The position numbers were made by a program, and so were the translations under genes. Of a stretch of DNA of 20,177 nt, positions 3,924 to 13,495 are shown one piece after another (position 1 is the stretch's first letter; every line of letters starts with the position of its first letter). A model generated the notes under the pieces. The model was not told where the DNA came from, made no database searches, and was given only the letters and a program-made list of their open reading frames with translations. This stretch comes from a virus, in IMG/VR virus record IMGVR_UViG_3300047562_002015, positions 1-20,177 of that record; one strand, given 5' to 3'.

Positions 3924-4611
3924 ACCAATTTCAAGGGAGTACGCCCAAACTTGTGCCGATTCGTGTGACAGAGCAGGCATAAATTGGGAATACTTTGAGG
4001 GTTGGTGTGATATCCCAGGCGTTCTTGCATGGGCTAGGTCAGGTATCAATTTGACTATCAACGAAGGCAAACCAATCACTTTGCCGCCTGCTGACTATCC
4101 ATTCGAACCAAATCCTAATTTGCACGCTGGGGAGAAAGCGGAGTGTTGTACAGTTGGTCATGCGGCAATATGGAAGAAGATTGCTGAAGGTGATGAAGAC
4201 GTAGGTATTGTTTTGGAACACGATGCGTTGATGTTAACAGAGATTGACATTGACATACCAGAAAATCGTATTGTAGTATTGGGGTACAAACTACCGCACC
4301 CAGAAAGATATGATCACGTTACTGCTGGTCCACCTGTAAGATTTGTTGACATTTTGGGACACGAAGGTGCACACGCATATGCAATGACAAAGAAGACTGC
4401 CCAGTTCCTTATTCACGAAATTGAGACAACTGGGAGACTAGGATGCGTGGACAATGCTTACTTCATCCTAAACCAGAGACGAACAAAAGTTCCTCTTTGT
4501 ATCGCAGACCCAACTCCCGCAATTGGTTGGTTAAGAGAATCTACCATATGGAATGGTTCTGCGTATAGAAATTATGAGTTCATTGATTCATTTAAACAAA
4601 ATTATAAATAA
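3886..4611 (+). CDS. GT25-like (LOS biosynthesis type) glycosyltransferase
   Basis: A 241-residue protein. Its N-terminus, K-A-Y-I-L-T-I, is the first beta strand of the GT25 fold. The segment E-C-C-T-V-G-H-A-A-I-W (residues 86-96) matches the family's C-x-x-S-H-x-x-x-W-type signature, and V-L-E-H-D-A (109-114) takes the place of the family's E-D-D nucleotide-sugar/metal motif. A later G-A-H-A-Y-A-M-T (161-168) matches the usual G-x-x-A-Y strand. Family enzymes add galactose or similar sugars to lipooligosaccharide or collagen-type acceptors. The ATG lies inside the 3' end of the sulfotransferase gene, after a purine-rich AAAGAGAAA. The final Tyr-Lys-stop codons form a perfect TATAAATA, so the end of the gene doubles as a late promoter for what follows. 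Confidence 0.83.
   Translation: MQTIKAYILTIDKPISREYAQTCADSCDRAGINWEYFEGWCDIPGVLAWARSGINLTINEGKPITLPPADYPFEPNPNLHAGEKAECCTVGHAAIWKKIAEGDEDVGIVLEHDALMLTEIDIDIPENRIVVLGYKLPHPERYDHVTAGPPVRFVDILGHEGAHAYAMTKKTAQFLIHEIETTGRLGCVDNAYFILNQRRTKVPLCIADPTPAIGWLRESTIWNGSAYRNYEFIDSFKQNYK
4603..4610 (+). promoter_or_regulatory. T4-type late promoter core TATAAATA
   Basis: A perfect match to the T4 late promoter core (TATAAATA), recognised in T4 by gp55 sigma factor with gp33 and the gp45 clamp. It lies 28 bases before the ATG at 4638 and overlaps the last two codons and stop of the GT25-like gene. It would drive the multidomain head-protein cassette late in infection. Confidence 0.72.
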
Positions 4612-4637: not shown

Positions 4638-7600
4638 ATGATGTTAGATCTCAGAGAAACAGATAAAAAAGAGAGCAAGTCCAAGAAAAGGGGCAAGATC
4701 GGCTTTAAGGAGTTCGATCCCTCTAAGTATATCGAACTAGAACCTACGCTCAAAGAAGCGAAGAGTGACACAGTGGTGTTTTCATTCGGAAGAATGAACC
4801 CAGTGACTATTGGTCACGAAAAACTTGTCAACAAAGTTAAAGCGCTTGCGAAGTCTAAGAATGCGGACGCTCGCATATATTTGTCTCACACACAAAACAA
4901 CTCTAAAGACCCTCTGAGTTACAGAGATAAAATTCGTTTTGCAAAAAAGGCATTTGGAAATGTCATTATTCAATCTAACGCAAAACAAGTTTTCCAAGTT
5001 GCTGCAGAACTTGAACAGGCTGGTTATAAGAACATAATCATGGTAGTCGGTTCTGATCGCATCAAAGAATTCCAAACAATTCTCGACAAATACAACGGCA
5101 AAGATTATAACTTCAATTCAATCAGTGTTGTTTCTGCAGGTGAACGCGACCCGAATGCAAAGGGCGTTGAAGGTATGTCTGGTACCAAACTTCGTGGGAT
5201 TGCGAAGGCAGGAGACTTTGAGATTTTCAAACAAGCAGCTGCGTCTGGACTTTCTGACAAAGACAAAATGGACATGATGAAATTAGTTCAAAAGAACTTG
5301 AAAGAGTCAGAAGAAATCTCAGAAGCGCCACTAACAAGAGCACAACGTTTAAAGCGTTCTCGACTATTTCGCAGAATTAAACACAAGATCAAAAAGGGTC
5401 GTGAAAGAGCGAGTAGAAGACGTGCATCGATGGAAGTGATTCGAAATCGTGCAAACAAACAAGCAAGACTTTTCTTCAAACAGAGATTAGCCAAAGGGTT
5501 GGATTATAAGGAACTACCTTATGGTCAAAGACAGGCAATCGATACTCGTCTAGCAAAAATATCCCCTGCAAGAATTAAAGCAATCGCTAAGAGACTTATT
5601 CCTAAAGTCAAAAAGAGAGAAATGGATCGTGTCAAGGCTCGTACCATGCCTTCTGAGGGTGTGGCACAAGACAAACAAATCAAGGATATGCCTGGCACAC
5701 AACCAAAAAAGTACTATAGCGGTCTTGACAAGAAAGAAAAAGAATCACGTGCAAGACAGTTCGCTCGTCAGTCAAAGATGAGTGATGATGATCCTCGTGC
5801 TTACAAACCTGCGCCTGGCGACGAAGATGCCAAAACCAAACCTTCTAAACACACAAAGAAGTTTAGTCAGATGTTTGGCGAGTCACTTCAAGAAGCGTCT
5901 CAAGCAGACACCAGATTTCGTAAGAGACCGCACATGGCACTCGAAAAGAACGGGACAGTAAAATTTGACCGTCGCTTTAAAATGTATCGTTCAAAAAACC
6001 AGATCAATGAAGGTTATGATGATCCTGCAGAGGATTTAGCAAATCTCATGTTAGACATGGATGCCTTTATAATGTCAGAAGATTTTGACGTTCTAATGGA
6101 GTCCGATCCAACGGAAGCACTCAAGAATAAGGCTGAAAAATCTGGTATATCGTACGGTATACTTAAGAAAGTTTTTGATCGTGGTGTAGCTGCGTGGAGA
6201 ACAGGTCACAGGCCTGGAACAACCCCAACACAGTGGGGTCTTGCTCGCGTAAACTCTTTTGCTACAAAAGGCAAGGGCACTTGGGGTAAAGCGGACAAAG
6301 ACCTTGCGGATAAAGTTCGCAAGGAAGAATTCGATTCTATCGAAGAGAACAAACTTCTCCATTCCAAAGAATACAAACATGCTGCAGACACCCTACAAAA
6401 AGTTTGGGACCGCAAAAAAGACGATGCAAAACACAGCATAGAATATTACGCAGCTCAAATTGCAAGACAGTATGACAACGTGAATGCTCGTGAATTGGCA
6501 AAAATGGTCAATGAAGAAGTGTCTCAGAAACAAATTGACGACTTAGAAAAGTTTGCAGATCGTATTCTTGCAAAGTTTGACGTTGACGTTGAATTCACAA
6601 AACACTTCGTTGACAGAATGAATGACAAAAGAAACTCACCAGAAATTAAAGTGGTAGAGTTGCAAAAGTTGTTCAAAAAAATCCAAAAGAACAAGGCTCA
6701 AAATATTAAAGGGAACGTTGGTATTGAAGCAGTTCTTAAGGACCTCTCTTCAGACCTCAATTTGCCTGTAGTTATTAAACGTAGAGGCGATGAAATTGAA
6801 TTGGTCAATAAAACAATTATGAGAAAATCCGATTTCAAAACATCAAACAAGGTAATTAAATACGAGGACACCATGAAAAGGTTCAGCGATCTTTATTCTG
6901 AAGAAAAAATCTTAACAACGGACGGAAGAATGAAATCCTTCAAAGAAAAACTCAAGAAGTTGGGTTATAAGAAAATAGAAGAACGTAAATCTTCAACTGG
7001 TTACGAATTGTACCACAAGGATTTTTCTTCAGCGATGAAACACGCATACGAATATGCGAAGAAGAAGTACAACATCGAAGTGGACCCAGAAGAAATCGAC
7101 AATAAGGTTGCATCTGGACCTCGTAAACCTTCTGCTGGTAAGACAAACTCATACCGTCTTCTAGACAAAGATGGCAAACGTGCAATCCAAGTTCAAGTTT
7201 ATAACATGGACAACAAGGGTTATGAGTTGAACATGTACAAAGAAGACGTGAACGTTTCTGAAAACAAGAAAATGTCTCTTCAAAAGAAACTTGATCAGGT
7301 GTCTGAACCTTCAAAAAAAGGCAAAGAAGGCGTTACCTTGAAGAAAGCACCATGGGAAAAGAAAGAAGGGTTTGATCTTGGTCTAGAACTTATAGAGGGT
7401 ATCAACGATCCAGGCATCTTCAAGGCGGTTTTCCTTGCGGGCGGACCAGGCTCTGGTAAATCTTTCATGGTTGGTAGAACTGCGTTGACTTCTCTTGGTC
7501 TAAAATTGATCAACAGTGACCCTGCATTCGAAGCGCAATTGAAGAAAGTTGGATTGAAACCAACACCAGATGATATCTTCACTCCTAAGGGTCAGGCTGC

Positions 7601-8315
7601 GCGTGACAAGGCAAAGGGGTTGGTCGCGAAACAACAGAAACTTGCACTAGATGGTCGTCTTGGACTTGTGATTGATGGCACAGGTAAGGATTACGACAAG
7701 ATCGAAAAACAAGCAAAAGACCTTAAAGCACTGGGGTATGATGTGGCAATGATCTTTGTCAACACCAATCTAGAAACTGCAATCTCTCGTGATGCGGCAC
7801 GTGAAAGAACACTGGGCGCAAAAGAAGTCACGAAGATGTGGCAACAGGTTCAAGACAACATTGGTAAATTCCAGTCTTTCTTTGGTAGCAACATGATCAT
7901 CGTAGACAACTCTGAAGGCGCAAACTGGCAGAAGGGTTCTACTGATGCATACAAGAAGATGTCTAAATGGGTCTCACAACCGCCCTCTTCCCCAATGGCA
8001 AAGAAGTGGATTGCATCCGTAAAGGCACAACGTGGCATTACTGAGTCCGATCTGGCGACGATTGTTAACGGTATCTTGGAGAGCAAAGACCAAGAAGGTT
8101 TCAGAAAACTGAGTGACATTTTCAAAAGAGAAATTAAAATGGTTGGGGAAGGTGTTGTTGTGAAAAAAAACAACCCACCAGAATTTGGTAAAACAGAAAC
8201 TACTAAGTTATTTAAAAGCATGACACCTGGCCAAAAGAACGAAAACACTTCTCCGAAATTTGCTAGACGAATCAAAGAAAGTGTAACCCGCAATAATAGA
8301 AGAAAAAAAGGTTAG
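4638..8315 (+). CDS. 1225-residue multidomain putative internal head protein: nucleotidyltransferase, basic region, GHRPG domain, P-loop kinase
   Basis: Modules, in order. (1) Residues 44-200 are a nucleotidyltransferase of the HxGH superfamily, with G-R-M-N-P-V-T-I-G-H (51-60), G-S-D-R (138-141) and S-G-T-K-L-R (181-186), like NMN/pantetheine-phosphate adenylyltransferases. (2) Residues 232-340 are strongly basic and helical. (3) Residues 500-545 carry G-H-R-P-G (523-527) and Q-W-G-L-A-R-V (532-538), seen in many phage and giant-virus proteins (DUF5824-like, from memory). (4) Residues 630-745 are a basic domain around H-F-V-D-R-M-N-D-K-R-N (656-666). (5) Residues 928-1115 are a P-loop kinase of zeta-toxin/AAA_33 type: Walker A G-G-P-G-S-G-K-S (935-942), N-S-D (959-961), V-I-D-G-T-G (1011-1016). 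Motifs (L/I)-x-E followed by Ala, Gly or Ser occur at 227, 417, 456, 486, 918, 1134, 1146 and 1212, often between modules, matching the T4 prohead-protease rule. ATG 4638 follows a GAGA; a second ATG at 4641 is possible. Packaging and cleavage are inferred. Confidence 0.8.
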   Translation: MMLDLRETDKKESKSKKRGKIGFKEFDPSKYIELEPTLKEAKSDTVVFSFGRMNPVTIGHEKLVNKVKALAKSKNADARIYLSHTQNNSKDPLSYRDKIRFAKKAFGNVIIQSNAKQVFQVAAELEQAGYKNIIMVVGSDRIKEFQTILDKYNGKDYNFNSISVVSAGERDPNAKGVEGMSGTKLRGIAKAGDFEIFKQAAASGLSDKDKMDMMKLVQKNLKESEEISEAPLTRAQRLKRSRLFRRIKHKIKKGRERASRRRASMEVIRNRANKQARLFFKQRLAKGLDYKELPYGQRQAIDTRLAKISPARIKAIAKRLIPKVKKREMDRVKARTMPSEGVAQDKQIKDMPGTQPKKYYSGLDKKEKESRARQFARQSKMSDDDPRAYKPAPGDEDAKTKPSKHTKKFSQMFGESLQEASQADTRFRKRPHMALEKNGTVKFDRRFKMYRSKNQINEGYDDPAEDLANLMLDMDAFIMSEDFDVLMESDPTEALKNKAEKSGISYGILKKVFDRGVAAWRTGHRPGTTPTQWGLARVNSFATKGKGTWGKADKDLADKVRKEEFDSIEENKLLHSKEYKHAADTLQKVWDRKKDDAKHSIEYYAAQIARQYDNVNARELAKMVNEEVSQKQIDDLEKFADRILAKFDVDVEFTKHFVDRMNDKRNSPEIKVVELQKLFKKIQKNKAQNIKGNVGIEAVLKDLSSDLNLPVVIKRRGDEIELVNKTIMRKSDFKTSNKVIKYEDTMKRFSDLYSEEKILTTDGRMKSFKEKLKKLGYKKIEERKSSTGYELYHKDFSSAMKHAYEYAKKKYNIEVDPEEIDNKVASGPRKPSAGKTNSYRLLDKDGKRAIQVQVYNMDNKGYELNMYKEDVNVSENKKMSLQKKLDQVSEPSKKGKEGVTLKKAPWEKKEGFDLGLELIEGINDPGIFKAVFLAGGPGSGKSFMVGRTALTSLGLKLINSDPAFEAQLKKVGLKPTPDDIFTPKGQAARDKAKGLVAKQQKLALDGRLGLVIDGTGKDYDKIEKQAKDLKALGYDVAMIFVNTNLETAISRDAARERTLGAKEVTKMWQQVQDNIGKFQSFFGSNMIIVDNSEGANWQKGSTDAYKKMSKWVSQPPSSPMAKKWIASVKAQRGITESDLATIVNGILESKDQEGFRKLSDIFKREIKMVGEGVVVKKNNPPEFGKTETTKLFKSMTPGQKNENTSPKFARRIKESVTRNNRRKKG

Positions 8316-8320
8316 GGTAA

Positions 8321-8755
8321 ATGTACGAATACAGATGTAAAATACTTCGTATAGTCGACGGAGATACCGTTGATGTGGATATTGACTTAGGATTTGGTGT
8401 CTGGTTGCATAGAGAACGTGTACGTATCATGGGTATCGACACTCCTGAGTCTAGAACGAAGGATGAGGAAGAAAAGAAATTTGGTTTGGCTGCAAAAGAA
8501 TGGGTAAAGGATCAAATGCCTATTGGTAGTCATCAAATTCTTAAAACAGAAATTGATACGTCTGGTGAAGATAAGAAGGGAAAGTTTGGACGCATTCTGG
8601 GCGACTTCCTTCTAGAAGATGGTGAAGTAAGACTTACAGAAAAGATGGCAGCTGCAGGACACTGCGTTCCCTATTTTGGTGGGTCTAAAGAAGAGATACA
8701 AGCACTTCACATGAAAAACAGGGAAAGACTGTTGATTGAAGGCATAGTAAAGTGA
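8321..8755 (+). CDS. Staphylococcal-nuclease-like (thermonuclease family) endonuclease
   Basis: A 144-residue protein with the SNase fold motifs. V-D-G-D-T-V-D (residues 12-18) provides the first Asp ligands. R-V-R-I-M-G-I-D-T-P-E (33-43) holds the catalytic Arg, the calcium-binding Asp and the general-base Glu, and G-K-F-G-R-I-L-G (87-94) holds the second catalytic Arg. All residues needed for Ca2+-dependent DNA/RNA phosphodiester cleavage appear present, so it is likely active. The length fits a single minimal SNase domain, and no signal peptide is visible, so it would act in the cytoplasm or in the virion. The start is an ATG five bases after the preceding stop, with an AAAGG-TTAGGG purine stretch upstream. 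Near the C-terminus is L-I-E-G (138-141), another protease-type motif. The next gene starts at an overlapping GTGA. Confidence 0.9.
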   Translation: MYEYRCKILRIVDGDTVDVDIDLGFGVWLHRERVRIMGIDTPESRTKDEEEKKFGLAAKEWVKDQMPIGSHQILKTEIDTSGEDKKGKFGRILGDFLLEDGEVRLTEKMAAAGHCVPYFGGSKEEIQALHMKNRERLLIEGIVK

Positions 8756-8784
8756 AAAGGTTTAAACAACATATTCACGAATCC
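8752..8784 (+). other. Candidate capsid-targeting peptide with prohead-protease site
   Basis: Codons 1-11 encode a Met-Lys start, an aromatic at position 4, Ile at 8 and Glu at 10 followed by a small residue. That is the same spacing as the ten-residue targeting peptide of T4 internal proteins IPI-IPIII (established). The resemblance is seen directly; function is inferred. Confidence 0.55.
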
Positions 8785-9126
8785 AGATTTGGTTTGTTTG
8801 AGGGGGTAACAGTCCCCCTTGAACAGCCTATGATTGAAGCAGAGGAACAAGAACTAGACTCGCCCAAAAGAAATTCTGGAGACGGCAAGAAGTATGTTGT
8901 TTATGTAAAAGACCCCGACACTGGGAATGTCAAAAAAATTACATTTGGTGATGAGAAGGGCGGGTTAACGTCTAAGATTAATGACAGAGAAGCTGCAAAG
9001 AATTTCGCAGACCGTCATAATTGTGATACGAAATCTGATAAGATGACGCCTGGATATTGGTCATGTCGTCTTCCGAAATATGCAAAAGGGTTAGGACTTA
9101 AAGGTGGCGGAGATTACTTTTGGTAA
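8752..9126 (+). CDS. Putative internal head protein with T4-like capsid-targeting N-terminus and Cys/His small domain
   Basis: A 124-residue product starting at GTG 8752, which overlaps the nuclease stop (GTGA). The first ten residues, M-K-R-F-K-Q-H-I-H-E followed by Ser, parallel the T4 internal-protein capsid-targeting peptide M-K-T-Y-Q-E-F-I-A-E, which is removed by the prohead protease after Glu. L-F-E-G (15-18) and M-I-E-A (27-30) offer further similar sites. Residues 46-110 form a compact domain with K-Y-V-V-Y-V-K-D-P-D-T-G, F-G-D, R-H-N-C (88-91) and Y-W-S-C (102-105). This resembles a small domain I recall from phage and giant-virus proteins (possibly DUF5872-like), perhaps metal-binding. 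The C-terminal end is Gly-rich and finishes in F-W. Packaging in the head is inferred from the N-terminus; the role of the folded domain is unknown. Confidence 0.78.
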   Translation: MKRFKQHIHESRFGLFEGVTVPLEQPMIEAEEQELDSPKRNSGDGKKYVVYVKDPDTGNVKKITFGDEKGGLTSKINDREAAKNFADRHNCDTKSDKMTPGYWSCRLPKYAKGLGLKGGGDYFW

Positions 9127-9382
9127 ACCTTATACTGATGAACTGGGCGATATCGACGTGTCCAGAAAGTTCGATGTTTCTTCTGATGGTTACGTATGGC
9201 ACAGAGATGCACATGATCGTGTCATAACAGTTGTAGAAGGTAACGGTTGGCAGTTTCAGGTGGAGGGATGTTTACCATTCCTTTTAAAAAGAGGGTTAAC
9301 TTTTAAAATAGAAAGTGGCGTTTATCATCGGTTGATTAAAGGCGTTGATGACCTACATATTAAAATAGTCGAAAATAAATAA
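9104..9382 (+). CDS. Small cupin-fold protein
   Basis: A 92-residue protein that fits a single cupin barrel. W-H-R-D-A-H-D-R-V (residues 32-40) and V-V-E-G-N-G-W (43-49) together resemble cupin motif 1 (His-x-His-type ligands, Glu, then Gly). G-V-Y-H-R-L-I-K-G (72-80) resembles motif 2, with H75 as the third His. Cupins bind metal and act as enzymes, sugar epimerases or sensors; the substrate cannot be read here. The start is taken as GTG 9104, with AGGA at 9093-9096 seven bases upstream, giving a 23-base overlap with the preceding gene. A downstream start is possible but would remove the first strand. The gene ends in an AT-rich run that contains two AATAAATA sequences before the 671-residue protein gene. 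Confidence 0.75.
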   Translation: MAEITFGKPYTDELGDIDVSRKFDVSSDGYVWHRDAHDRVITVVEGNGWQFQVEGCLPFLLKRGLTFKIESGVYHRLIKGVDDLHIKIVENK

Positions 9383-9421
9383 ATAAAAACAGGTCAAATC
9401 CAAATTTTTAAGGAAAGTAAA

Positions 9422-11437
9422 ATGAATTTCAGAGACAAAATCAACAGTCTTTTCAGCGGATTAACTTTTGATGCGCTCGAAACGATAGAAGAGAAGAAGA
9501 ACACATCCTATAAAGAAGGTTCTTTGGACAAGGTAAATCCTGATGCTTTGAAGAAAAACTTCAAAGACCGCAAAGACAAAGACATTGACAACGATGGCGA
9601 TGTAGACGACTCTGATGAATATTTGCACAATCGTCGCAAGGCGATCAAAAAGGCAATTGCTAAAGAATCCTTAGATGAAGAATCGAAAACAATTGCATCA
9701 ATGAGAAAAATTGTTGCTGACAAACAAGCGATGAAGGTTGACGGTGTCATGGTTGACATGTTCACTGCCTCAGCAGTCACTCAAATTTACGACAAGGTGA
9801 ATGATGCAAACAAGGCAAAGTTGGATGGTATGAAAGCCTCCCAACTTGCAAACATCGCATATAAGATGATGAAGAAAGAAGAAGTCGAAATTGATGAAGC
9901 GGCACCAAAGTTAAAGGGCGATTACATTAAAACCCAACGCGAAAAAGATCGTGCTCATGACGCAGCGATGGGTCGTACTGCAACTGGTCGTAAGAAACCG
10001 CAGCGTGCAATGACTTCTACCCAACGTTCTTTGGCGTCCATGCGTAAAGAAGACCTTGACGAAAACAAAATGACAGGCAACTATGCCAGAGTCATGTATG
10101 ATTATCGTGAAGACTATTATAACATCACGGTATACAAGAATGGTAAGGAAGTAGCCTCAGATGACGGATACTTTGGTGCAAACGAGACAGGCAACCCTCT
10201 TATCAAGAAGTTTACTGATATTGTCAAAAAGGCTGGGCTGAAACCAGAAGGTTTACCAATCGTAGACGAAGACGGCAAGAAGGGCGTGTTCAAAGGAAAT
10301 ACATTCAAGTGGAACACAAAAGAAGAAGTTGAACTGGATGAGGCAAAATCTAAAGAAGAAAAGATTGCCGATTTAGAGAAAATGCTGAAGGGTATCAGTG
10401 GAAACACATCTTCAGTGAAAATGAAAAAATATGCTATCCAGAAAAAAATCAACGATCTAAAAAATGAAGAAGTCGAACTAGACGAAAACATGTCACGTGT
10501 TGCAAAAGAACTTGAAGACTATGCACGTAAGAATGGTGGCATTGACAAGATGGACTTCATGAAAGCGGCAATGATGATGAAGAAAGGTCAGACCAACCAA
10601 CTGAAAAAGTTCGTTGATGATCTGGACACAGAACCACGTGAGAAGATTCTATCTCTAATGCAGAAAGATGAAGCTATACTTACTGGTAAAGACAACGATC
10701 ACCTTGAAAAAAAGTTAGACAAGGTAAGAAATCGTACTCAAAAAGCTATGAATCAAAAAACAAAGTCAACGATGGAAGAAGTTGAACTAGAAGAAAAAGT
10801 CGATGTCAAAGGAATTCAAAAAGCGGTTGACGATGGTAAGTCCATCGACGTTATCATGACCATGTTCGCTAACAAGCGCACAACCAATACTGATGAAATC
10901 CGCAAGGTCGTAAAAGACTACATGTGGAAGAAACGCATGAAGAAAGAAGAACTTGACGAAGCCAAGAACTATGAAATCAAAGACGGCAAGGTTCATATAT
11001 CGAAGGCAAACTTCCGTAAGGTTCACAAAGACTATAAGAACGCAACAAAGGGACAAGAACGTATGATGGCGCTTGACCCTAAAACTGGTGCAACGACTTC
11101 GTTCCCAGTTGTTTTCACTGAGTCTGATGGATTTGAAAATTCATTCCGTCAAAAGTTTGTTGAAAGTCTTCAAAATCGTTTAGTAGAAAAATATGCAGAA
11201 GAAAATGGTATTGATATCAATTCTTTGACTGAAGAAGAATTGGACGAAGTTATTGGTGCTATTGTTCGTGGTGTTAAAAAGGTCGCTAACAGGTTGTCTA
11301 CTTCAGGTCGTGCAGATGCGGCAGAAAAAAGAGCAGCTGCAGCAGAGAAGAAAAACAGAGACAGAGAACGTATCCAAAAGGCGCAACAAAGGTTAAGAGA
11401 CGCTCAAAAAGCTGCTCAAGACCGCGCTAACGCATAA
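9422..11437 (+). CDS. 671-residue repeat-punctuated putative internal head/structural polyprotein
   Basis: I do not recognise an enzymatic domain. The protein is highly charged and mostly helical. Near the N-terminus D54-I-D-N-D-G-D-V-D-D-S-D65 is a perfect EF-hand-type loop. Eight acidic punctuation motifs, mostly (K)E-E-V-E-(L/I)-D-E, end at residues 86, 159, 214, 307, 355, 458, 513 and 609 and divide it into segments of roughly 48 to 103 residues that do not resemble each other. (L/I)-D-E followed by Ala occurs at 157-160, 305-308 and 511-514, fitting the T4 prohead-protease rule. The last 60 residues form an Ala/Arg/Lys/Gln-rich helix, like core or DNA-binding tails. The start has an excellent AGGAAAG at 9411-9417. 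Similar multi-motif proteins occur in marine T4-like phages (from memory, usually unannotated). In-capsid cleavage into small proteins is an inference. Confidence 0.72.
   Translation: MNFRDKINSLFSGLTFDALETIEEKKNTSYKEGSLDKVNPDALKKNFKDRKDKDIDNDGDVDDSDEYLHNRRKAIKKAIAKESLDEESKTIASMRKIVADKQAMKVDGVMVDMFTASAVTQIYDKVNDANKAKLDGMKASQLANIAYKMMKKEEVEIDEAAPKLKGDYIKTQREKDRAHDAAMGRTATGRKKPQRAMTSTQRSLASMRKEDLDENKMTGNYARVMYDYREDYYNITVYKNGKEVASDDGYFGANETGNPLIKKFTDIVKKAGLKPEGLPIVDEDGKKGVFKGNTFKWNTKEEVELDEAKSKEEKIADLEKMLKGISGNTSSVKMKKYAIQKKINDLKNEEVELDENMSRVAKELEDYARKNGGIDKMDFMKAAMMMKKGQTNQLKKFVDDLDTEPREKILSLMQKDEAILTGKDNDHLEKKLDKVRNRTQKAMNQKTKSTMEEVELEEKVDVKGIQKAVDDGKSIDVIMTMFANKRTTNTDEIRKVVKDYMWKKRMKKEELDEAKNYEIKDGKVHISKANFRKVHKDYKNATKGQERMMALDPKTGATTSFPVVFTESDGFENSFRQKFVESLQNRLVEKYAEENGIDINSLTEEELDEVIGAIVRGVKKVANRLSTSGRADAAEKRAAAAEKKNRDRERIQKAQQRLRDAQKAAQDRANA
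9581..9616 (+). other. EF-hand-like calcium-binding loop in the 671-residue protein
   Basis: Codons 54-65 give Asp at loop positions 1, 3, 5 and 12, Gly at 6 and Val at 8, matching the canonical EF-hand or dockerin-type calcium loop. Such loops in virion proteins can stabilise assembly. Calcium binding itself is not shown. Confidence 0.65.
9671..11248 (+). repeat. Eight dispersed (E)E-x-(L/I)-(D/E)-E protein-coding motifs
   Basis: Motif ends fall at residues 86, 159, 214, 307, 355, 458, 513 and 609, with spacings 73, 55, 93, 48, 103, 55 and 96. The four best DNA copies begin AAGAAGT(T/C)GAA but differ at third positions, so the conservation is at the protein level and not a recent DNA duplication. 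Likely protease sites or linkers. Confidence 0.7.
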
Positions 11438-13222: not shown

Positions 13223-13495
13223 ATGTCCGTAGAAAAAATCATCGCAGCTGCATTGGCAAACAACCCTATGCAAATGAAAAAAGAATTCGAAGAAGAAATG
13301 AGTGTTCGTGTAGAAGCTGCTCTAGAGCAGAAGTATCGTTCTATGCTTGAAGCAAAAGACGAAGATGAAGACGAAGACGAAGAAGATGATGAAGACGAAG
13401 AAGATGAGGATGATGAAGACGAGGATGAAGATGAAGAAGACGATGAGGACGAAGTCGCATTCGAACAGAAAAAACCTCGCGCTTCTAAGAAATAA
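13223..13495 (+). CDS. 67: Prohead core protein gp67 homologue
   Basis: A 90-residue protein in two parts. The N-terminal helical region (residues 1-45) has M-S-V-E-K-I-I-A-A-A and K-K-E-F-E-E-E-M-S-V-R-V. Residues 46-77 are 32 consecutive Asp/Glu, and the tail ends K-K-P-R-A-S-K-K. T4 gp67 (80 residues) has the same plan: an L-I-E-A-type helical start and a long acidic C-terminal run. It is a minor prohead core protein needed for correct head shape and is degraded by the gp21 protease. AGGAG at 13211-13215 and the late promoter upstream fit a late structural gene. In T4 it is followed by 68, 21, 22 and 23; here the next genes are spanins, so the order is rearranged. The basic C-terminal octapeptide is a local feature. 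Confidence 0.82.
   Translation: MSVEKIIAAALANNPMQMKKEFEEEMSVRVEAALEQKYRSMLEAKDEDEDEDEEDDEDEEDEDDEDEDEDEEDDEDEVAFEQKKPRASKK
13358..13453 (+). repeat. GAA/GAT low-complexity tract encoding 32 acidic residues
   Basis: An imperfect GAA/GAC/GAT/GAG codon run within gene 67. Such tracts can vary in length by slippage between related phages. It also produces a spurious hydrophobic frame on the opposite strand. Confidence 0.9.

Follow-up and report, generated by a model that had tools for sequence, protein, structure and literature searches.

A multidomain chain in a viral fragment

The IMG/VR virus record IMGVR_UViG_3300047562_002015 was analyzed over positions 1 to 20,177 (20,177 nucleotides, hereafter the window). 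An open reading frame (ORF) at 4638–8315 on the plus strand encodes a chain of 1225 amino acids in which several unrelated modules are joined by linkers carrying sites of the type (L/I)-x-E. A first reading of the letters without database searches (the original prediction) had proposed that this chain is packaged in the virus head and processed there into separate effectors by cutting after (L/I)-x-E, when followed by Ala, Gly or Ser; the position and length that it gave for the ORF were confirmed. Coordinates are collected in Table 1.

The N-terminal nucleotidyltransferase matched PHROG 3041/395 over residues 22–328 (E 1e-93) and resembled PPAT/NaMNAT by Foldseek (E 1e-3, prob 1.0); a Pfam match to CTP_transf_like was sub-threshold. 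It had been described as an HxGH nucleotidyltransferase, of which the family holds, by profile and fold, and the motif does not: the residues are TxGH (T57-I-G-H60), accompanied by MSGTKLR at 180–186, with G59, H60, S181, and R186 invariant in the alignment. The module therefore has the hallmarks of the NMNAT/PPAT family, namely (H/T)xGH, (I/M)SxTxxR and a Rossmann-like fold. The basic domain predicted to follow it was recovered as an all-helical module, the GHRPG-type domain as DUF5824, and the unnamed domain between DUF5824 and the kinase as a PHROG match. The C-terminal module, predicted as a zeta-toxin-like P-loop kinase, matched zeta toxin/AAA_33 at about 930–1140 in Pfam (Zeta_toxin, 43.9 bits vs a cut-off of 22.3) with the Walker A motif AGGPGSGKS; its best fold match in Foldseek was polynucleotide kinase 4gp6 (E 6e-6), followed by zeta toxin 1gvn (E 1e-5). 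A search for cellular relatives of the kinase gave a single distant contig. A sequence search of solved structures gave no match, megablast against phage records found no near relative, and neither Pfam nor PHROGs recognized a peptidase domain in the chain.

Sites of the prohead protease type

The chain holds ten [LI]-x-E-[AGS] sites, compared with 2.1 +/- 1.4 expected from 5000 shuffles (P=0.0004), an excess above chance. The eight motif positions listed in the original prediction were all exact, and two had been overlooked, at 38–41 (LKE^A, the caret marking the predicted cut) and 221–224 (LKE^S). The pattern [LI]xE without restriction at P1' showed no significant excess in the chain (14 vs 10.2 shuffled, P=0.12) and was dropped as a marker.

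Because the motif might have been picked after the fact, Glu was swapped for 17 other residues, P3 and P1' were scanned, and the spacing was altered. None of the 17 replacements gave a comparable excess in the chain and its relatives, and [LI]E, [LI]xxE, [LI]xxxE and the reversed motif were not enriched in the same proteins, the neighbouring spacings being flat or depleted. The scan returned Glu at P1, mainly Leu or Ile at P3, and A, G or S (also E or N in relatives) at P1'. It thus recovers, unprompted, the Glu at P1 and Leu/Ile at P3 of gp21, the T4 protease, whose cleavage follows L/I-X-E (PMC9026906). The excess was 4.8-fold in the chain and 2.6-fold in 64 non-redundant proteins matching it. 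In the same loci, genes without a match to the chain showed a 1.5-fold excess, perhaps from other candidate cargo genes there, and the whole HTVC008M proteome, which serves as a control, showed none (77 vs 72).

The sites were placed on AlphaFold2 models built from 20–21 rows. The second of these is modest (mean pLDDT 64.5), with residues 626–744 and 756–880 not well resolved. Low-confidence segments were predicted at 1–26, 30–41, 229–231, 338–358, 420–461 (with short breaks within), 473–487, 726–787, 871–882, and 887–920. Sites 38, 456, 486, and 918 (named by their first residue) lie within or border such linkers, 227 and 417 fall at breaks, and 1134 falls between helices. The expectation that motifs would lie between folds was therefore borne out for most sites and failed for 221, 1146, and 1212, which stand inside predicted helices. 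The cut at 920/921 had been predicted to free the kinase just before its first strand, and in the model the disordered linker 887–920 indeed stops exactly there, the first kinase strand running from 929.

Conservation points to some of the same sites. At the nucleotidyltransferase start, [LIMF]xE is present in 15 of 15 distinct relatives, down to 36% identity. At its end, where the original prediction had put the cut 229/230 that would free the module, [LIVMF]xE is found in 13 of 24 distinct relatives, including all close ones, and model confidence breaks at the same place. Upstream of DUF5824, a strict site lies within 45 amino acids in 10 of 21 distinct modules, vs 2.1 in shuffled sequence. 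Essentially every relative retains sites 38, 918, 1134, and 1212, at modules that open an ORF as well as at internal ones.

Table 1. Features of the chain and its surroundings (res, residues of the 1225-residue chain)
Feature	Coordinates	Strand	Basis or remark
Candidate head-cargo polyprotein, multidomain, 1225 aa	4638..8315	+	ORF; ten [LI]xE[AGS] sites vs 2.1 expected
T4-type late promoter motif TATAAATA	4603..4610	+	sequence motif, 35 bp upstream of the chain start codon
Predicted cut site LKE^A, res 38-41, N-terminal propeptide end, ahead of nucleotidyltransferase	4749..4760	+	low-confidence 30-41
Nucleotidyltransferase module, res 41-229, NMNAT/PPAT-like, TxGH + SGTxxR	4758..5324	+	phrog_3041/395; Foldseek
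Site LKE^S, res 221-224	5298..5309	+	in predicted helix
Predicted cut site ISE^A, res 227-230, nucleotidyltransferase/basic border	5316..5327	+	confidence break 229-231
Very basic helical module, res 230-338, net charge +31, 35% K/R	5325..5651	+	AlphaFold2 helices 234-336
Small conserved module, res 343-415	5664..5882	+	found in varying orders in relatives
Site LQE^A, res 417-420, in linker	5886..5897	+	motif, AlphaFold2; position not conserved
Site INE^G, res 456-459, in linker	6003..6014	+	motif, AlphaFold2; position not conserved
Site LME^S, res 486-489, directly ahead of DUF5824	6093..6104	+	low-confidence segment 473-487
DUF5824 module, res 493-556 (GHRPG)	6114..6305	+	PF19141, E 1.7e-14, match 496-555
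Unnamed module, res 626-744	6513..6869	+	phrog_23027, E 3e-50, match 628-741; occurs in other orders
Predicted disordered linker, res 887-920	7296..7397	+	model residues 288-321 (offset 599), pLDDT < 50
Predicted cut site LIE^G, res 918-921, kinase start	7389..7400	+	Glu-Gly in all distinct kinase relatives
P-loop kinase module, res 921-1136, zeta-toxin/polynucleotide-kinase-like	7398..8045	+	PF06414, E 2e-11; Foldseek
Predicted cut site ITE^S, res 1134-1137, kinase end	8037..8048	+	[IM]xE in 13/13 distinct relatives; between helices
Site ILE^S, res 1146-1149	8073..8084	+	motif; weakly conserved
Predicted C-terminal cut site IKE^S, res 1212-1215	8271..8282	+	IxE in 5/5 distinct relatives
Neighbour with canonical capsid-targeting N-terminus MKRFKQHIHE^S	8752..9126	+	sequence
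Second bead-string protein, 671 aa, repeated EEVELDE-type [LI]xE sites between small domains	9422..11437	+	

Module shuffling among relatives

The comparison set comprised 80 related viral loci from marine phages (labelled L below). In these loci the modules of the chain occur singly or combine into about 20 multi-module layouts, a few of which may be truncated, since some stop at contig ends. The layout in the window is nucleotidyltransferase-basic-343-DUF5824-626-kinase (343 and 626 denote the modules starting at those residues); others are 626-nucleotidyltransferase-343-DUF5824 (L045) and kinase-basic (L033), and in L004 and L006 the modules are divided over two ORFs. Throughout this reordering of modules, the predicted sites remain at module edges. 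Counting non-redundant occurrences, with the expectation taken from the composition of each segment, linkers upstream of modules hold 50 sites vs 10.3 expected, linkers downstream hold 28 vs 8.4, and module interiors hold 7 vs 14.3, with six of the seven in a single poorly defined region; the module cores were chosen by us from alignment ends, so these exact counts carry some choice. A strict site was found at 52 of 92 junctions, compared with 18.6 in shuffled linkers.

Even in the jumbo phage Atu_ph07 the kinase, there preceded by an unrelated N-terminal domain, is still flanked by VTE^G and LTE^L; this protein (L109 2257–4593) starts MKWNDLNE^A, and its N-terminal domain looks like an ADP-ribosyltransferase from its sequence. 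In the phage phiM12 homologue (L110 3935–5743) the chain is kept and TxGH is gone (LNPATVEHEE), so its nucleotidyltransferase is probably inactive.

Signs of packaging and late expression

A gp21 protease (Peptidase_S77) is encoded in 7 of 15 related records, including the complete genomes of HTVC008M and Melnitz and five other contigs. The gp23 proteins of relatives carry FLSE^A, FLSE^S, FLGE^I, and ALNE^V at the position that corresponds, by comparison with T4 gp23, to the T4 cut.

T4 internal proteins begin MKTYQEFIAE^A, as read from the T4 record. In the T4 capsid-targeting peptide, residues 4 and 7 serve targeting and residues 8 and 10 processing (PMC9026906). Among 541 related genes, 31 start with this layout, MKxFxxF(L/I)xE, compared with 13 of 3213 interior Met positions (P=3e-17). 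Free-standing nucleotidyltransferases begin MKGFKDYIVE^A and MKKFSAFLNE^A, and a free-standing DUF5824 starts MITFKKYLEE. Phage C48C1 encodes the basic domain (MLSFKQFVSE) and DUF5824 as separate ORFs, each with a targeting peptide.

A homologous cytidylyltransferase/nucleotidyltransferase has been detected by mass spectrometry in the virion proteome of cyanophage S-CREM2 (PMC10665884). It starts MKNFSSFLTE^A, and the virion SAM hydrolase, APH kinase, and a small neighbour of this phage also start with a targeting peptide. Start-anchored targeting peptides were found in 4 of 51 virion proteins vs 1 of 164 other proteins of S-CREM2 (P=0.012), which are small counts. A strict site in the first 45 amino acids was equally common in virion and other proteins of the S-CREM2 proteome; since the bare site shows no such difference, the full targeting peptide is taken as the packaging marker. 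NMNAT-like proteins are also reported from virions of the cyanomyoviruses S-SCSM1, S-CBWM1, and S-SZBM1. As a side observation, S-CREM2 (L103) ORFs 6, 12, 13, and 14, for a SAM hydrolase, a nuclease annotated as 'Cas9', a small protein, and an APH kinase, were all found in the virion and all have a T4-type targeting peptide, that of ORF12 lying some 15 residues inside; these peptides may explain the presence of the four in virions.

The chain gene is preceded by TATAAATA, the T4 late-promoter sequence. The same motif stands at -32 to -40 in the orthologues of L002, L005, L007, L010, and L018, and it lies upstream of 16 of 63 proteins matching the chain, compared with 40 of the 438 remaining proteins and 1.6% of windows drawn at random. 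As a sequence sign only, this conserved motif indicates late expression of the chain gene. In the window, ATAAATA occurs on the plus strand at 1924, 4604, 9375, 9379, 11434, 13184, and 14221, 28–52 bp ahead of ORF starts; none was found on the minus strand, and none stands just ahead of the primase, thyX, nrdA or nrdB starts. These positions look like a map of the late genes of the window.

Interpretation and alternatives

We consider it likely that the chain is a polyvalent cargo protein which a marine T4-like myovirus makes late and packages in its head, and which the prohead protease cuts in trans. None of the computational tests capable of refuting this did so. The proposal of packaging and processing in the head is in this sense supported, with motif specificity, site placement, module shuffling, gp21 and gp23, the virion homologue, and the late promoter in agreement and the cleavage being what they suggest. 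The chain would be made late from its T4-type promoter and would enter the prohead core alongside internal proteins bearing capsid-targeting peptides. Once the prohead is complete, a gp21-type protease would cut after (L/I)xE in the linkers, removing an N-terminal propeptide of about residues 1–40 and freeing at least the nucleotidyltransferase (41–229) and the kinase (921–1136). After ejection together with the DNA, the freed modules would act on the host as infection begins. The NMNAT-like enzyme plausibly acts on nicotinamide adenine dinucleotide (NAD), the polynucleotide-kinase/zeta-like kinase could act on nucleic-acid ends or nucleotide sugars, and the +31 basic module may bind DNA as T4 internal proteins do.

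Several points weigh against this reading. A cleavage product is on record for neither the chain nor any homologue. The start of the chain, MMLDLRETDKKES..., is not a canonical targeting peptide; it offers only FKEF...YIE at about 23–33, followed by LKE^A. The window is itself a 20-kb fragment, and the nearest relatives (L002, L003, L004, and L013) are fragments in which gp21 and gp23 are missing. The contrast between virion and other proteins in S-CREM2 is drawn from few proteins. Junctions of the 626–744 module are unenriched in sites in the related loci, and the HTVC008M fusion is devoid of strict sites. Sites 417, 456, 486, and 1146 lack positional conservation among relatives and are for this reason weaker candidates than 38, 227, 918, 1134, and 1212.

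The main rival to full processing is that the chain is packaged and loses only its N-terminal propeptide (cut 40/41), and perhaps a C-terminal tail, as in T4 Alt, the remainder entering the host as one 'polyvalent' protein and the other sites being leftovers of shuffling. Known cargo gives this some weight, as 13 of 14 known head-protease cargo cuts in SPN3US take off N-terminal propeptides (PMC10052503) and T4 Alt loses peptides from its two ends (PMC9026906). A module copied from a free-standing gene would also import a targeting peptide, for example EAFESYLEE^G in L017. However, what survives at the internal sites is the part needed for processing (Glu at P1, L/I at P3), the targeting residues being usually absent. 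The sites on either side of the kinase are conserved, including the downstream one, which is no start peptide, and the enrichment of sites extends to linkers downstream of modules. End-trimming is judged unlikely.

An ordinary intracellular multi-enzyme protein that is never packaged, with Leu-x-Glu-Ala reflecting helix ends or linker composition, appears less probable still. The linkers are Glu-rich, the relaxed pattern [LIVMF]xE is little above shuffled linkers (88 vs 76.6 of 92), and the mild excess in non-matching genes of the same loci would fit such an explanation. It is opposed by the residue-by-residue and spacing controls, the conservation at module edges, the flat HTVC008M proteome, the late promoter, and the detection of a homologue in virions. 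It has also been shown that T4 core proteins are cleaved by gp21 to small peptides that leave the head (PMC9958956), and the modules could by analogy be structural or scaffolding parts of head assembly, like T4 gp22, gp67, and gp68, with sites that serve the destruction of the chain and its exit from the head. We regard this as very improbable, as the active-site motifs of two enzymatic modules are intact, the sites avoid folds, and the homologous nucleotidyltransferase stays in mature virions.

Relation to known systems

Several known systems resemble the proposed one in part. T4 IPI–III and Alt are packaged in the core and cut by gp21 after L/I-x-E, and many are ejected with the DNA; their targeting-peptide layout is that of the relatives of the chain. 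Each T4 cargo protein, however, stands alone and has one end peptide to be removed (Alt has two), whereas the chain has several enzymes with sites between them. In phiKZ and SPN3US, many internal head proteins are processed after a short xxE motif by the gp21-type protease gp175/gp245; the motif is S/A-x-E or A-x-E, and the cuts mainly remove N-terminal propeptides. The virion nucleotidyltransferase or NMNAT-like proteins of the cyanophages S-CREM2, S-SCSM1, S-CBWM1, and S-SZBM1 are single modules, homology having been tested here for S-CREM2; the portions of their literature at hand do not link them with capsid targeting or a gp21 site.

Iyer et al. (2017) have described polyvalent proteins, injected phage or plasmid proteins with 2–15 unrelated effector domains each that are thought to be cut into units (PMC5512222). 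Some have zeta-like kinases and, like the chain, they bring several unrelated catalytic domains together. Their proposed cutting is by a built-in zincin metallopeptidase, a theme that is common and not universal, whereas the chain has no peptidase recognized by Pfam or PHROGs and carries sites for a head protease in trans. A term search of the source returned no mention of DUF5824 or cyanophage. The Dar proteins of bacteriophage P1 (DarA, DarB, and DdrB) are head-packaged host-takeover proteins; DarB has a capsid-targeting N-terminus and DarA is processed. They differ from the chain in the proteins and protease involved, and multi-site release of separate enzymes is not described in the part of the report available (PMC9024508). 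In the papers and passages covered by our literature search there was no description of a head protease freeing several enzymes from one chain, and only PMC5512222 bore on it.

Beyond this one chain, we lean towards the view that marine T4-like phages use the head-maturation protease for polyprotein processing: a reshufflable string of early-acting enzymes would be made from one late gene, co-packaged, and freed in the capsid, giving a fixed ratio of effectors per virion. Tailed phages would then apply to their head cargo a polyprotein strategy known from eukaryotic RNA viruses, with the capsid protease working in trans. This would also help to explain unexpected enzymes such as nucleotidyltransferases, kinases, and SAM hydrolase in cyanophage virions. 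A sequence code of MKxFxxF(L/I)xE at starts and (L/I)xE^(A/G/S) between modules would then predict packaged takeover proteins, and could be applied to viruses that abound in the ocean and about whose earliest steps of infection little is known.

Neighbouring genes

In phage Melnitz, the module encoded at 8752–9126 of the window is fused behind DUF5824 at the C-terminus of the nucleotidyltransferase protein. The gene for the 671-residue bead-string protein has ATAAATAAATA upstream, at 9375–9385, and in relatives this protein has modules in common with the chain; one of them directly precedes the kinase in L007. It also contains a calcium-loop-like stretch, DIDNDGDVDDSD. The multidomain gene is often preceded by one for a DUF6267 protein (L065 3902–5131 and orthologues), which has a ligase-type motif, KWDGAP, and starts with a targeting peptide; this protein could form a nucleic-acid repair pair with the polynucleotide-kinase-like module. 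A 90-amino-acid protein at 13223–13495 has a long Asp/Glu run and TATAAATA upstream, and it weakly resembles a family of prohead core proteins (phrog_1064, E 0.014).

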